NCBI GenBank assembly: GCA_024278075.1 | Contig: JAJRTW010000107.1 | Location: 1-46,802, forward strand | Direction of reading: 5' to 3' | From: Bacteroidota bacterium | GTDB taxonomy: Bacteria > Bacteroidota > Ignavibacteria > Kapaibacteriales > UBA2268 | DNA length: 46,802 nucleotides | The notes under the pieces: model-generated | What the model was told of the DNA's origin: nothing | The model's database searches: none | Seen by the model: the letters and a program-made list of their open reading frames with translations, nothing else | Shown here: positions 3,316 to 7,725 of the stretch, piece by piece | Position numbering within the stretch: position 1 is the first letter of the stretch | Layout of the letters: the number at the start of each line of letters is the position of its first letter | Made by a program: the position numbers and the translations under genes

Positions 3316-3645
3316 ATGAAAAAAATATTATTCATAGCTTTCCTGTCTTTTATCGCATTTTGTGCCTGTGAAGAGACCTGGCCGCCGCAGGTGAAGCCAA
3401 CGATTCCCGCAGACCATACCGAGGAAGAGGGAGGTGTTTACCATAAACCCGGGCTGGATTTCCCTTATGGCTATAATGAGGCCACCAACGACAAGAATTG
3501 TGCCGGTGCGACTTGCCACCATAGCGACCTTCGCGGCGGGCTGGCCAAAAAAAGCGTCCGGGGCAAGGTTGAGGCCGTATCGCCCTCGTGCTATCAGTGC
3601 CATGGCAAAGTGTGGGAAGATATTTCGAGTGCTGGCGGGGATTAA
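3316..3645 (+). CDS. Small di-haem c-type lipoprotein
   Basis: The 109-residue protein opens with a lipoprotein-type signal ending in FCAC (Cys18). The mature part has two haem-attachment motifs: CAGATCHH (CxxxxCH) and CYQCHG (CxxCH) near the C terminus. The rest is short and polar with no other fold I recognise. It probably serves as a periplasm-facing electron carrier. The expanded CxxxxCH spacing matches the first haem site of the larger lipoprotein at 1856-2845, so both may use the same maturation system and may be partners. It lies 318 bp upstream of the thioredoxin-led cluster, separated by an inserted element. Whether it once belonged to that operon is open. Confidence 0.75.
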   Translation: MKKILFIAFLSFIAFCACEETWPPQVKPTIPADHTEEEGGVYHKPGLDFPYGYNEATNDKNCAGATCHHSDLRGGLAKKSVRGKVEAVSPSCYQCHGKVWEDISSAGGD

Positions 3646-3660
3646 TTTGAATGAATAATT

Positions 3661-3925
3661 CTTAAGTGTCCGGTTCACGATGCGGACAATTAGTGAAAAT
3701 CGTGATACAAGCTCCATTTAGCCCAATATTGTGCAATAATTGATACAATTTTGGATTTAGTGAGATTCAATATCAAAGCGTGTCATTCCGGACTTGATCC
3801 GGAATCCATCTCAATATGGCCACATAGCCTGTGAATACTGGATTCTGAAACGAGTTCTGCAATGACAAGTCATAATATTCAGGTACATATTATGAGTGTT
3901 TCTCTTTTTTTACCGGACACTACTG
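3661..3925. mobile_element. MITE-like element (265 bp) with 9-bp target duplication, copy 2
   Basis: The left end has AGTGTCCGG (about 3665-3673) and the right end TTTTTTACCGGACACTACTG finishes at 3925. The interior aligns with 12229-12494: TGTCATTCCGGAC, TCCGGAATCCATCT, GGCCACATAG, ACTGGATTCTGAAA and GCAATGACAA occur in the same order. It is flanked by TGAATAATT (3652-3660) and TAAATAATT (3926-3934), an 8/9 match fitting a 9-bp target duplication. There is no coding sequence. It accounts for nearly all of the 318 bp between the small haem lipoprotein and the thioredoxin gene. Confidence 0.85.
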
Positions 3926-3963: not shown

Positions 3964-4461
3964 ATGCTGAAAACATTAATTATAGTTATCGTATTTTTCT
4001 CCGGGCTGCCGGCGGCTTTCTCAATCGAATCCGGCACTAAAGCTCCGGCATTCAAAGGCAATACACTCGATGGCGGCACAATAAAGCTCGAGGATTATAG
4101 GGGCAAGGTTGTCCTGCTTGACTTTTGGGCCAGCTGGTGCGGGCCATGCCGAAAGGAAATGCCGTTCCTCGCCGAACTTTATAAGGAATTCGAAGGCCAT
4201 GATTTTGAAATACTGGCAGTGAATATAGATAAAAAGAAAAAGAATGCCGAGAAGTTCTTGAAGAAACTTGATGTGAAAATAAAATTCCCCGTAATTTGGG
4301 ACAAGAAGAAAGAAATCCCGCCGCTCTATGGCATAAAGACTATGCCGACAACTGTGCTTATCGACAAAAAAGGCAATGTCCGCTATATCCACGACGGCTT
4401 TAGCGAAAGCCTGAAAAATCAATTCAGAAAAGAAGTAAGGGAGCTGTGCGGTGAAAAGTAA
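3964..4461 (+). CDS. TlpA/ResA-like exported thioredoxin
   Basis: The 165-residue protein has an N-terminal signal segment (about 1-20, ending PAAFS) and a full thioredoxin fold with the active-site motif WASWCGPC (Cys59, Cys62) and the cis-proline loop MPTT. It is predicted to be a periplasmic thiol-disulfide reductase of the TlpA/ResA type, which often keeps cysteines reduced for haem attachment or metal insertion. It is the first gene of a tight plus-strand run. Its last codons overlap the GTG of the DUF4266 gene by 11 bp, indicating translational coupling. Likely substrates are cysteine-rich neighbours such as the CGCG tail of the DUF4266 protein or the three-cysteine NusG_II protein; this is inference from context. 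Confidence 0.9.
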   Translation: MLKTLIIVIVFFSGLPAAFSIESGTKAPAFKGNTLDGGTIKLEDYRGKVVLLDFWASWCGPCRKEMPFLAELYKEFEGHDFEILAVNIDKKKKNAEKFLKKLDVKIKFPVIWDKKKEIPPLYGIKTMPTTVLIDKKGNVRYIHDGFSESLKNQFRKEVRELCGEK

Positions 4462-4696
4462 ATCTAAGAATAAATCCAAGAAAGCAATATTATTAATATT
4501 TTCTCTGTTTTCAATTGGCATTATTCCCCAAAGCTGCGTGACGGTTCAGCCCTGGGAGCGCGAGGAATTAATATCACCCATTATGATGTTCGATGAAAAC
4601 CCGATTGACAAAGGGATTCAGCTTCATCATATCGACCACAGGGAAGGTTCTTCGGGCGCAACCGGGTCGCAAAGCGGGGGCTGCGGTTGTGGTTAA
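4451..4696 (+). CDS. DUF4266 small lipoprotein with SGAT motif and CGCG tail
   Basis: The 81-residue product starts at a GTG inside the end of the thioredoxin gene. It has a basic N terminus, a hydrophobic segment (about 11-25) and a Cys at 29 that probably becomes lipidated. The VQPWERE motif and terminal GGCGCG are typical of DUF4266. Residues 68-71 read SGAT, preceded by Asp62 and several small residues. This resembles the D-x-x-SGAT/S threonine acceptor that ApbE flavin transferases modify, and an apbE gene lies in the same run. No function is known for the family. Flavinylation of this protein is a hypothesis from motif and context. Confidence 0.8.
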   Translation: MKSKSKNKSKKAILLIFSLFSIGIIPQSCVTVQPWEREELISPIMMFDENPIDKGIQLHHIDHREGSSGATGSQSGGCGCG

Positions 4697-5885
4697 ATCA
4701 AAGCCGTTAATATATCTTATTGCCTCTCTTTTTGGTGTATTGCAGGTAATTGCCGCCGAACTCCCCGAAGATGAAATCCAGATGAATATGAACGGCTACT
4801 TCGATAATTTCGGAGTCAAGATTGTTTACCCTGATTTGTCCGTCAGGAAATCTATCTCCGCCACCACAAGTATCAACGGAAGATACCTGATTGACATTAT
4901 AACCGCCGCATCAACAAGAAGCCAGTTCAATAATGTGTATTCCTATCAAAATGTCGAATCCGGAATCGATGCCTTCACTTCAGCCACACGGAAGGACACG
5001 GCGCTTGGCCACGGCGGAGGGGACGACTTCCCCGATGAAACAAGGCATGAAGTTGCCTTTGGCATAACCCAATTGATAGGAGAGACAACCGTTTCTATCA
5101 ACAATATTTTCAGCACAGAAAACGACTATGATTCCAAGACAATAGCGGCGTCGGTTTCAATCCCGTTTGCCAAAAAGAACACTATCGTTAATGCCGGAAT
5201 AGTAAAAAGCTGGGATAGGTCGTTCCCGCAAACCCGGGCATGGACAGCCGGCAAGGACGTGTTGTCACTGTCTTTGGGCATGTCCCAGATATTCAGCGTC
5301 AAGTTCCTGGCCCAGGCCGAAGTATTCTATAGCAATATGAGCGGATTTCTGCCCGACCCGTACCAGGTTGTTACCGTTGCTAATTTCGACAGCAACAGTT
5401 TAGCATATTTCGAACCGAGGTATCCCGATGACAGAAAAAGATATGCCGCAGGAATGCGAGGCATTTACAAGACCGGCGAGCCATCATCACTTCAACTTGG
5501 CTACAGGTATTATGGGGATTCATGGGATATTAATTCGCATACGCTATCGGGGCTATTCCAATATTCGTTCTACGAAGACGACCTGATACTCGGATTGGGA
5601 ATTAGATACTACACGCAGGCCGCTGCCAGCTTCTTCAAAGAGAATTACACCGCCGAAGAAGAGTACATGGCCGTCGACCCCAAGCTGAAGGAAATGTATT
5701 CCAGCGAGTTTCAGCTGAATGCCACAATTAACGGCGGCATAATTCCGCTTATTAACAATGAGGACATTAAACTCTCCACACGTGTGCATTTCTTCCATAG
5801 ATACACCGATGCTCCAGACTGGCATTCGAGGAACACAGACCTGCGGGCATTTATTTTTAGTCTCGGCTTCAGGTATTTGTATTAA
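4689..5885 (+). CDS. DUF3570 exported beta-rich protein, probably outer membrane
   Basis: I place the start at the GTG at 4689, which overlaps the stop of the DUF4266 gene by 8 bp and gives MVKSKPLIYLIASLFGVLQVIAA, a clear signal peptide. An upstream ATG at 4593 only extends into the DUF4266 coding region. The mature protein (about 375 residues) shows alternating aromatic/polar strands such as LQLGYRYYGDSW and ends in LGFRYLY, an outer-membrane-barrel-like terminus. Family DUF3570 has no established function but travels with DUF4266, thioredoxin and apbE genes. The likely role is an outer-membrane partner or conduit of the cluster, which is inferred. Confidence 0.85.
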   Translation: MVKSKPLIYLIASLFGVLQVIAAELPEDEIQMNMNGYFDNFGVKIVYPDLSVRKSISATTSINGRYLIDIITAASTRSQFNNVYSYQNVESGIDAFTSATRKDTALGHGGGDDFPDETRHEVAFGITQLIGETTVSINNIFSTENDYDSKTIAASVSIPFAKKNTIVNAGIVKSWDRSFPQTRAWTAGKDVLSLSLGMSQIFSVKFLAQAEVFYSNMSGFLPDPYQVVTVANFDSNSLAYFEPRYPDDRKRYAAGMRGIYKTGEPSSLQLGYRYYGDSWDINSHTLSGLFQYSFYEDDLILGLGIRYYTQAAASFFKENYTAEEEYMAVDPKLKEMYSSEFQLNATINGGIIPLINNEDIKLSTRVHFFHRYTDAPDWHSRNTDLRAFIFSLGFRYLY

Positions 5886-5945
5886 ATTTGCAAGCGAAGT
5901 ATTTTTGTATATTTTCATTAAGTTTTATTATCAAGTTATCTTATT

Positions 5946-6626
5946 ATGAACAGAAGAACATTTTTGAAATCAGGTGCGTCGGCAATCGGAGGGATGGCAT
6001 TATTCAGCCTCCCGGGCCGCAGGCAGGTTATAGCATATAGCGGGCAGGTGGCCGAAACCGGCTTTACCATTGAAGTATTAACAGGTGATGCCGATAAAGC
6101 GGTTGAACTATTATCCGGTATAATCCCCGGAATATCGGCAAGCCCAATTCATTTTTCGGAGCATATTCTGCCGGGCAAATATGTTGGCGATCTTATTTTC
6201 GTCAATAATAATTCGCTTGTTAATTACAGACAGCGCCGCGATGAGATTTCCCGTAAACTGGCCAAAATATCGGAGCAGCTTAGGCTCCCGTCAAATGTTA
6301 CCGGCCCGAAGCTGCTTGTTTTCTCGGCCGGAAATAATAATATAAAACCTAAGGCCGCAAGCCTGTTTATTGACAATCAACTTGTTGAAAGGTTTGAACT
6401 TAATGATAATATTAAAGAGTATATAATCAAAACCAATTCCGGCGAAATGGCCATGGCCATAGAGGATGATTCCGCAAGAATTCTAAGCTCTTCGTGCAGG
6501 CATGGGACATGCGTCCGTACGGGGCCTGTCCGCCGGGCGGGGCAGAATATTGTCTGCATTCCAAATCGCGTCAGGCTCTCAATCGAAGGCTATCGAAGGG
6601 ATGGAATTGATGCGGTTTCCCAATAG
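5946..6626 (+). CDS. Tat-exported protein with C-terminal NusG domain II
   Basis: The 226-residue protein begins MNRRTFLKSG, a twin-arginine signal followed by a hydrophobic stretch, so it is probably exported folded, perhaps with a cofactor. Residues about 40-150 are unassigned. Residues about 160-215 match NusG domain II as found beside ApbE/Rnf-type genes: SSSCRHGTCVRTG then VCIPNRVRLSIEG. It has three conserved cysteines (Cys184, Cys189, Cys204) that could bind a metal or cluster. The end of the gene lies in the first unit of the 24-bp repeat that carries the apbE start codons, so the two were originally overlapping and coupled. Its function is not established. Confidence 0.75.
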   Translation: MNRRTFLKSGASAIGGMALFSLPGRRQVIAYSGQVAETGFTIEVLTGDADKAVELLSGIIPGISASPIHFSEHILPGKYVGDLIFVNNNSLVNYRQRRDEISRKLAKISEQLRLPSNVTGPKLLVFSAGNNNIKPKAASLFIDNQLVERFELNDNIKEYIIKTNSGEMAMAIEDDSARILSSSCRHGTCVRTGPVRRAGQNIVCIPNRVRLSIEGYRRDGIDAVSQ

Positions 6627-6729
6627 AATCATTATGCGGTTTCCCAATTGAATCATTATGCGGTTTCCCAATAGAATCATTATGCGGTTTCCCAATAGAA
6701 TCATTATGCGGTTTCCCAATAGAATCATT
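6610..6729 (+). repeat. 24-bp tandem repeat, five units, multiplying the apbE start site
   Basis: Five head-to-tail copies begin at 6610, 6634, 6658, 6682 and 6706, each starting ATGCGGTTTCCCAAT. All units keep the apbE frame. Unit 1 also carries the TAG stop of the upstream gene. Unit 2 has AATTGA instead of AATAGA, placing TGA in the apbE frame, so initiation for full-length ApbE is only possible from units 3, 4 or 5. The original gene probably started at 6610 and overlapped its neighbour. Confidence 0.95.
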
Positions 6730-7725
6730 ATCCTGTTTATTTTTGCATTTGGCACGTGCGGGGCGCTGCCGGACACCACCGCTCTATATGAAATTGATGT
6801 CTCCAAGTATTTGCTCGGCACTGTTATCGACGCAAAAGTCGTTCATCACGACATCAATTATGCCCGGGAATCACTCTATCTTGCCTTCAGGGAAATCGAA
6901 CGCATCGAGCATAAATTCAGTACGAAATTCGATGAAAGTGTTATTAACAGTATTAATTCAAATTCGGGCATCAGGCCGGTGGAGATAGACAAGGAGACAT
7001 TTGCACTGCTTGCCCGTTCGGTCAGTTTCTCTGCCGATTATGAGGCTTTATTCGATATTACCGTGGGGCCGCTGACAGAGCTTTGGGGCTTTAATTCCGA
7101 CGATGATATTATTATTCCCACAGAAAATGAGATTTCAGCCCTTCTGCCGCTTGTTGGCTATAAGCATATCGTTCTGGACTCATCGAAAGGCACGGTTTTT
7201 CTTGCGGGAAAGGGAATGAAGATTGACCTGGGCGGTGTGGCCAAAGGTTATGCTGTGGATAGGGCGGCGGATATATTGAAGAGGCGAGGTGTGCGGAATT
7301 TTATGGTAAATGCCGGCGGGGACATTGTTTGCGCCGGCACAAACAGCGAAGGCAGGCCATGGGGAATCGGAGTGAAGCACCCCAGGGAGTCGGGCGAGCT
7401 TCTCGTTAGATTCAGGGCCTCCGACATTGCTATATCCACAAGCGGCGATTACGAGCGGTTTATTGATGTCGGCAACAATCGCTATCACCATATATTATTG
7501 CCGCAGACCGGCTGGCCGGGCGATCTATGCCGGAGCGTTACCGTGCTGAGCGATAATTCGGAACTTGGGACAGTAATTGCTAAGTACATATTCCTGAAAG
7601 GATACGAAGAATTCTCGAAGACAGAACTATCGAAAACCATTAAATATTTTATAGTCGAAAAAGGCGGGCAGGTTAAATTCAGCCCCGCTTTGGTAACTGA
7701 GAACGAATTATTCTTTGTGGAATGA
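6658..7725 (+). CDS. apbE: FAD:protein FMN transferase (ApbE family)
   Basis: The 355-residue protein shows the ApbE signatures: GGVAKGYAVD (residues 192-201), NAGGDIVCAG, and ISTSGDYERF followed by the HHILLPQTGWP region. ApbE enzymes transfer FMN from FAD to a Thr/Ser in extracytoplasmic redox proteins using Mg. The N terminus is unusual: three repeats of MRFPNRII precede a hydrophobic export segment ending near FGTC. Starts at 6682 or 6706 would give a more normal signal peptide; the one at 6658 is the furthest upstream allowed by the TGA in repeat unit 2. It closes the TlpA-DUF4266-DUF3570-NusG_II run, so its substrate is probably encoded there. A CACACTTCGTGTG hairpin lies just after the stop. 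Confidence 0.93.
   Translation: MRFPNRIIMRFPNRIIMRFPNRIIILFIFAFGTCGALPDTTALYEIDVSKYLLGTVIDAKVVHHDINYARESLYLAFREIERIEHKFSTKFDESVINSINSNSGIRPVEIDKETFALLARSVSFSADYEALFDITVGPLTELWGFNSDDDIIIPTENEISALLPLVGYKHIVLDSSKGTVFLAGKGMKIDLGGVAKGYAVDRAADILKRRGVRNFMVNAGGDIVCAGTNSEGRPWGIGVKHPRESGELLVRFRASDIAISTSGDYERFIDVGNNRYHHILLPQTGWPGDLCRSVTVLSDNSELGTVIAKYIFLKGYEEFSKTELSKTIKYFIVEKGGQVKFSPALVTENELFFVE

Follow-up and report, generated by a model that had tools for sequence, protein, structure and literature searches.

The window analysed here is a 46,802-nucleotide (nt) stretch of DNA, contig JAJRTW010000107.1, from a Bacteroidota genome of 3.7 Mb in 275 contigs whose nearest named relatives, judged by the DUF3570 protein, are Ignavibacteria and Kapaibacterium. 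At positions 3964–7725 it carries genes for a thioredoxin, a DUF4266 lipoprotein, a DUF3570 protein, a NusG_II protein and the flavin transferase ApbE, all on the + strand and at the coordinates given in an initial annotation made from the sequence alone; a Pfam scan backs each family. These five genes are a recurrent operon of a kind already described, and the family of cell-envelope redox clusters to which they belong is known and uncharacterised. The best overall explanation, which we hold with moderate confidence, is that they form a redox module of the cell envelope belonging to the DUF3570/DUF4266 flavinylation type. The features discussed below are these:

3316–3645, + strand: small c-type haem lipoprotein bearing a CX4CH and a CXXCH motif; opens the conserved cluster in this lineage
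3964–4461, + strand: TlpA/ResA-like exported thioredoxin, active site WCGPC (Pfam AhpC-TSA/Redoxin, E 4e-33)
4451–4696, + strand: DUF4266 lipoprotein with a C-terminal CGC (Pfam DUF4266, E 2e-16)
4652–4663, + strand: SGAT of DUF4266, Thr71 codon at 4661–4663; flavin mononucleotide (FMN) site of the initial annotation, here judged to be none
4689–5885, + strand: DUF3570, predicted 16-strand outer-membrane barrel and likely FMN acceptor (Pfam DUF3570, E 9e-42)
4893–4913, + strand: predicted FMN site 1, D69-IITAA-S75, where loop L2 begins (conserved acceptor-type motif; model)
4968–4988, + strand: predicted FMN site 2, D94-AFTSA-T100, in loop L2 (conserved acceptor-type motif; model)
5946–6626, + strand: NusG_II protein with twin-arginine translocation (Tat)-type export and conserved C184/H186/C189/C204 (Pfam NusG_II, E 1e-18; weak Tat signal)
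6609–6623, + strand: NusG_II C-terminal DAVSQ, a truncated ApbE acceptor-like motif (motif count among open reading frames)
6610–6738, + strand: 24-bp tandem repeat, 5.4 copies, across the NusG_II end and the apbE start (Tandem Repeats Finder)
6658–7725, + strand: ApbE, FAD:protein FMN transferase, with the Mg-ligand Asp replaced (Pfam ApbE, E 2.5e-74)

The DUF3570 gene most likely starts at a GTG at 4689, inside the end of the DUF4266 gene; the earlier ATG chosen by the open reading frame (ORF) finder would cross DUF4266 out of frame. Given this start, the overlapping ends described in the initial annotation hold for the first two junctions, with 11 nt shared by thioredoxin and DUF4266 and 8 nt by DUF4266 and DUF3570, but the later genes are separated by gaps of 60 and 31 nt. 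The haem gene stands further from the thioredoxin gene in the window than in relatives, and the intervening stretch contains, at 3782–3808, the dispersed repeat GTCATTCCGGACTTGATCCGGAATCCA, which has 71 copies genome-wide (≤2 mismatches) and none in a reversed control.

Relatives of the cluster were collected as 149 loci in which DUF4266 adjoins DUF3570, drawn from 395 Bacteroidota genomes and a scan of named genomes; these loci are non-independent, many coming from one Bacteroidota family. The named-genome scan used a 12-member DUF3570 alignment, as a 27-member one had too little conservation for scanning. Among the 395 genomes DUF4266 occurs in 113, all of which have DUF3570 (113/113) and nearly all ApbE (112/113), ApbE being found in 260 genomes overall. 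The clustering of these genes is thus not due to chance. An earlier survey counted 285 flavinylation clusters with DsbD, typically accompanied by DUF3570, DUF4266 and a thioredoxin-like protein, and a further 316 without DsbD, in which ApbE, DUF3570, thioredoxin and DUF4266 were counted as the same system (PMC8238504).

The flavin acceptor

The initial annotation proposed that DUF4266 is a flavinylated lipoprotein, with FMN carried by Thr71 in SGAT. Thr71 and its SGAT are present as described, as is the CGCG tail, and the motif fits the ApbE consensus both in the window and in locus L075. When SGAT was followed through DUF4266 proteins beside apbE, the check suggested with the proposal, it proved unconserved: [ST]GA[ST] stands at the aligned position in 2/149 homologues, of which 103 have ApbE in the fetched locus, and elsewhere N, A, T, E or S predominate in that column. 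Thr at position 71 is common to the clade, including the sister loci, and the motif is not, because the sister segments read GSVGGTG, GSEGGTG and GSKGGTG and so carry VGGT, EGGT or KGGT. The Asp62 cited upstream of Thr71 exists but lies at −9, as against −6 in the D-x-x-[ST]-G-A-[ST] pattern of DUF3570 sites; the −6 position of DUF4266 is Glu65, near-invariant with or without a following Thr. DUF3570, moreover, has both conserved motifs and experimental support as an acceptor (PMC8238504). Flavinylation of DUF4266 on Thr71 is therefore very improbable and was rejected as a candidate. What is conserved in DUF4266 is its C-terminal CxC, found in 149/149 homologues (CGCG in the window), together with the lipobox Cys29, invariant in 17 aligned sequences.

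DUF3570 had been listed as having no established function, which overlooks work on Chlorobium luteolum, where coexpression and mutagenesis revealed a DUF3570 protein flavinylated at two sites (PMC8238504). In the window protein the pattern D-x-x-[ST]-x-A-[ST] occurs twice, as DIITAAS and DAFTSAT. In full-length DUF3570 proteins the motif [ST][GSA]A[ST] is found in the N-terminal half of 132/147 and the C-terminal half of 17/147, with a shuffled mean of 0.19 per N-terminal half; with N or T also accepted as the second residue, these counts rise to 139 and 21. The window's own genome encodes one ApbE, and searches of it for FMN_bind and DUF2271 gave no match, so DUF3570 is the only recognised acceptor in the genome. 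If flavinylation occurs, the acceptor is very probably DUF3570 and not DUF4266.

Structural modelling can suggest where such flavins would lie. An AlphaFold2 model of DUF3570 built from 76 sequences is a 16-strand barrel with a mean predicted local distance difference test (pLDDT) score of 88.3 and a predicted template modelling (pTM) score of 0.83. It has the hallmarks of an outer-membrane barrel, namely an N-terminal helix (7–15) in keeping with a signal peptide, a closed barrel with an even number of strands and an LY C-terminus, and it superposes colinearly on PgaA, BcsC, CymA and OmpG, barrels of known topology. The model and these matches back the placement of DUF3570 at the predicted outer membrane that the initial annotation had made. 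Strands 3 (60–72) and 4 (115–130) are joined by residues 73–114, the longest loop (L2), which contains Ser75 and Thr100. Because the standard topology rule sets both termini in the periplasm and long loops outside, and because of the colinear superposition on known barrels, L2 is predicted to be extracellular; it is fairly probable on this model that the loop presents both FMN sites at the cell surface. The loop is poorly conserved overall, yet Asp69, Ala74, Ser75, Asp94, Ala99 and Thr100 all belong to the 40 best-conserved positions of DUF3570. Conservation showed a weak, non-significant trend with strand height, which was not used as proof of a functional barrel face.

In two loci, L034:6446–7845 and L036:5370–6769, DUF4266–DUF3570 forms a cluster without apbE, and a NusG_II–ApbE pair is found elsewhere in each genome; in both DUF3570 proteins site 1 has decayed (DQVTVPAV) and site 2 is retained (TAVTGAT).

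The ApbE variant and its NusG_II neighbour

Several observations weigh against a flavinylated surface barrel in this lineage. Loop L2 has a pLDDT of about 50, which leaves its fold uncertain and would allow the sites to sit inside the barrel lumen, and TAAS and TSAT depart from the classical [ST]GA[ST] in a degenerate second residue. In the window ApbE aligned to FmnB (7esa), FmnB Asp301, a Mg ligand and triad member, becomes Thr305, and FmnB Thr305 becomes Lys309; the Ignavibacteria-type relatives L074, L077, L078 and L089 likewise have T or V at the Asp301 position, with K. Alanine at FmnB Asp301 abolishes or greatly reduces activity (PMC8906456). One explanation would be that ApbE no longer transfers FMN in this lineage, leaving the cluster as a thiol–haem system without covalent flavin, as the shared substitutions and the single ApbE of the genome might suggest. 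We consider this improbable, since all five loci with an Asp-less ApbE retain two DUF3570 acceptor motifs and the rest of the enzyme is well conserved: His278, Ser262 and Arg267 are present, corresponding to the catalytic FmnB His273, Ser257 and Arg262. Lys at window position 309 also recurs in 15/91 cluster ApbEs, including other lineages in which Glu replaces Asp, which suggests a working alternative. Either the window ApbE works with an altered site or flavinylation is decaying, and this is the main uncertainty in reading the cluster as a flavinylation module. The stretch 7489–7584, which encodes Thr305 and Lys309, also gives the window ApbE a Leu281 where 85/91 cluster ApbEs have Asp or Asn.

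The NusG_II protein appears tied to ApbE. Cysteines C184, C189 and C204, putative thiol or metal ligands in the initial annotation, are invariant in 10 homologues, and the family occurs in 14/395 Bacteroidota genomes as 16 genes, every one (16/16) directly upstream of a same-strand apbE; the pairing holds also in genomes without DUF4266. Synteny on Enterococcus and Treponema plasmids sets NusG_II beside the Gx transporter, and the identification of NusG_II with EetA rests on this synteny. In Listeria, EetB (PF07456) is required for PplA flavinylation; eetA is adjacent in 3,328 genomes, and its deletion in Listeria has no phenotype. A search for PF07456 in the window's genome gave no match, and the window NusG_II pairs directly with ApbE. 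A structure search with the whole NusG_II model returned relatives for the NusG_II domain only, and a literature search for NusG_II together with ApbE found no paper in the collection searched.

The C-terminal ending D[AGS][ILV][ST]x, an ApbE motif stopping short of the acceptor residue, is present in 6/11 NusG_II proteins of these clusters, compared with 2 in roughly 1,290 other ORFs; the six are non-independent because the clusters are related. It may be speculated from these sequences that the tail serves as an ApbE pseudo-substrate or docking element. In the window the tail coincides with the tandem repeat at 6610–6738, one frame of which gives DAVSQ and the stop codon and another a repeated MRFPNRII with several in-frame apbE ATGs; changes in copy number would thus shift the start of the ApbE signal peptide by 8-residue steps.

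Candidate thiol and haem partners

The window thioredoxin has ResA and TlpA as its best NCBIfam matches, and DsbD is encoded apart from the cluster, on contig C23. DUF4266 has been described as a CxC protein that may redox-cycle (PMC8238504), and the initial annotation took its CGCG tail for a thiol or metal site kept reduced by the thioredoxin. A role as a thiol site tied to the thioredoxin is supported at the level of sequence by the invariance of CxC and by natural gene fusions: in two Holophagaceae loci (L145 and L153) thioredoxin and DUF4266 form a single 240-residue protein. In L057 thioredoxin is fused to ApbE. Alternatively, the cluster could handle metals, with the DUF4266 CxC binding iron or copper and flavin and haem serving outer-membrane metal reduction or uptake without a thiol relay. 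A VIT1 iron transporter occurs in 25 DUF3570 clusters (PMC8238504) and haem proteins lie close to many loci, but no gene of the window cluster was recognised as a transporter and the thioredoxin–DUF4266 fusions favour thiol exchange, making metal handling unlikely.

Haem lipoproteins upstream of the five genes had been proposed as natural electron partners, a proposal that fits one of the two. The small lipoprotein at 3316–3645 has a homologue upstream in 10/10 other NusG_II-containing clusters, mostly overlapping or abutting the next gene, and both haem motifs are retained in the alignment; by its conserved position, it is a predicted member of the operon in this lineage. It matches TIGR01904, a CxxxxCH/CxxCH domain, below the cut-off; the L046 version has 11 CXXCH, and in L035 and L037 the haem gene adjoins DUF4266, thioredoxin being undetected there. 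The minus-strand lipoprotein at 1856–2845, of PSCyt1 type with one CX4CH and one CXXCH, was excluded from the cluster because it has a strong homologue beside the cluster in only one relative, L074.

Elsewhere, hydrazine-synthase-alpha-like proteins (PF18582), most with two or three CXXCH, are encoded on the same strand upstream of DUF4266–DUF3570 in 37/149 loci, 10 to 2943 nt from DUF4266. Examples are L100:3072–5807 and L034:4163–6436, with 35 other loci; the gap is 10 nt in L034 and L036. In Sulfurimonas-like and Aquificaceae loci a protein of about 200 residues with two CXXCH occupies the upstream position. A search for HZS_alpha in the window's own genome gave no match, but neither did any control genome, so the gene's absence does not follow. 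Hydrazine synthase is absent from the main text of PMC8238504, and a literature search for DUF3570 with hydrazine synthase found no paper in the collection searched. Between the hydrazine-synthase-like gene and thioredoxin in L100 (5714–7185) lie two barrel-like ORFs of about 220 to 280 residues with aromatic C-termini; L095 and L119 have similar ORF pairs.

Taken as an envelope redox module, the cluster may work as follows. ApbE would attach FMN to Ser75 and/or Thr100 of DUF3570, as shown in the C. luteolum homologue, a step that would need to occur in the periplasm, ahead of barrel insertion. DUF3570 would then reside in the outer membrane and carry the two FMN sites on loop L2, at the predicted extracellular side given by the model and standard topology. 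The exported thioredoxin is probably fed by DsbD, and conservation and gene fusions suggest that electrons may be exchanged between thioredoxin, the DUF4266 CxC and the DUF3570 flavins. Conservation of the operon suggests that in this lineage the small haem lipoprotein may join in, connecting haem carriers with those based on thiols and flavin, and NusG_II would be an accessory of ApbE, whatever its substrate. The full haem–thiol–flavin relay is put forward tentatively, as plausible and somewhat short of probable. More doubtful is a bolder version in which DUF3570 acts as a flavin conduit at the cell surface, receiving its covalent FMN in the periplasm and then being inserted with it on an extracellular loop, and in which thiol and flavin chemistry would cross the outer membrane without a multihaem chain; the thioredoxin–DUF4266 thiol relay and haem lipoproteins would be its electron partners, and NusG_II would be an accessory dedicated to ApbE, with a tail that imitates the acceptor motif.

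Relation to known redox systems

As of 2021, what DUF3570 electron transfer is for had yet to be settled (PMC8238504). New here are a barrel model in which a single loop, predicted to be extracellular, holds the two FMN sites, the haem lipoprotein at 3316–3645 as a putative operon member, the natural thioredoxin–DUF4266 fusions, the position of NusG_II, always upstream of apbE in the Bacteroidota sample, the truncated acceptor-motif tails, a sole genomic ApbE without the Mg-binding Asp, and the occurrence of the module beside hydrazine-synthase-alpha-like proteins elsewhere. With the barrel model, the haem lipoprotein, the fusions and the neighbours resembling hydrazine synthase, a flavoprotein that had no assigned place becomes an envelope redox system open to testing, one that occurs in Bacteroidota, Nitrospirota, Campylobacterota, Aquificota and Proteobacteria. 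An Asp-less ApbE kept next to intact acceptor sites is also a natural test of the enzyme mechanism.

With the system of Meheust 2021 the window shares a clustered thioredoxin-like protein, DUF4266 with a C-terminal CxC, a two-motif DUF3570 and ApbE, with DsbD in the genome. It differs in that the thioredoxin of that system is PF13899, whereas the window's best matches are AhpC-TSA/Redoxin; a conserved haem lipoprotein and NusG_II are added to the cluster; the DsbD gene lies on a different contig; and ApbE lacks the Mg-site Asp. The barrel topology of DUF3570 and the placement of its flavins are absent from the main text of that study (PMC8238504).

The Firmicutes locus for flavin-based extracellular electron transfer (ApbE/FmnB, PplA, EetA, EetB) likewise combines ApbE with NusG_II, at the EetA position. 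Unlike that locus, the window's genome has no match to the EetB family and no FMN_bind protein, and here a diderm would use a predicted outer-membrane barrel as the acceptor. Mtr-type porin–cytochrome conduits also combine an outer-membrane barrel with redox carriers, a likeness to the window cluster that is a functional analogy only, the Mtr barrel (6r2q_B) being just one among many weak barrel matches of the DUF3570 model. Where Mtr-type conduits use a decahaem chain, the window cluster is predicted to use covalent flavin, thiols and a small haem lipoprotein.

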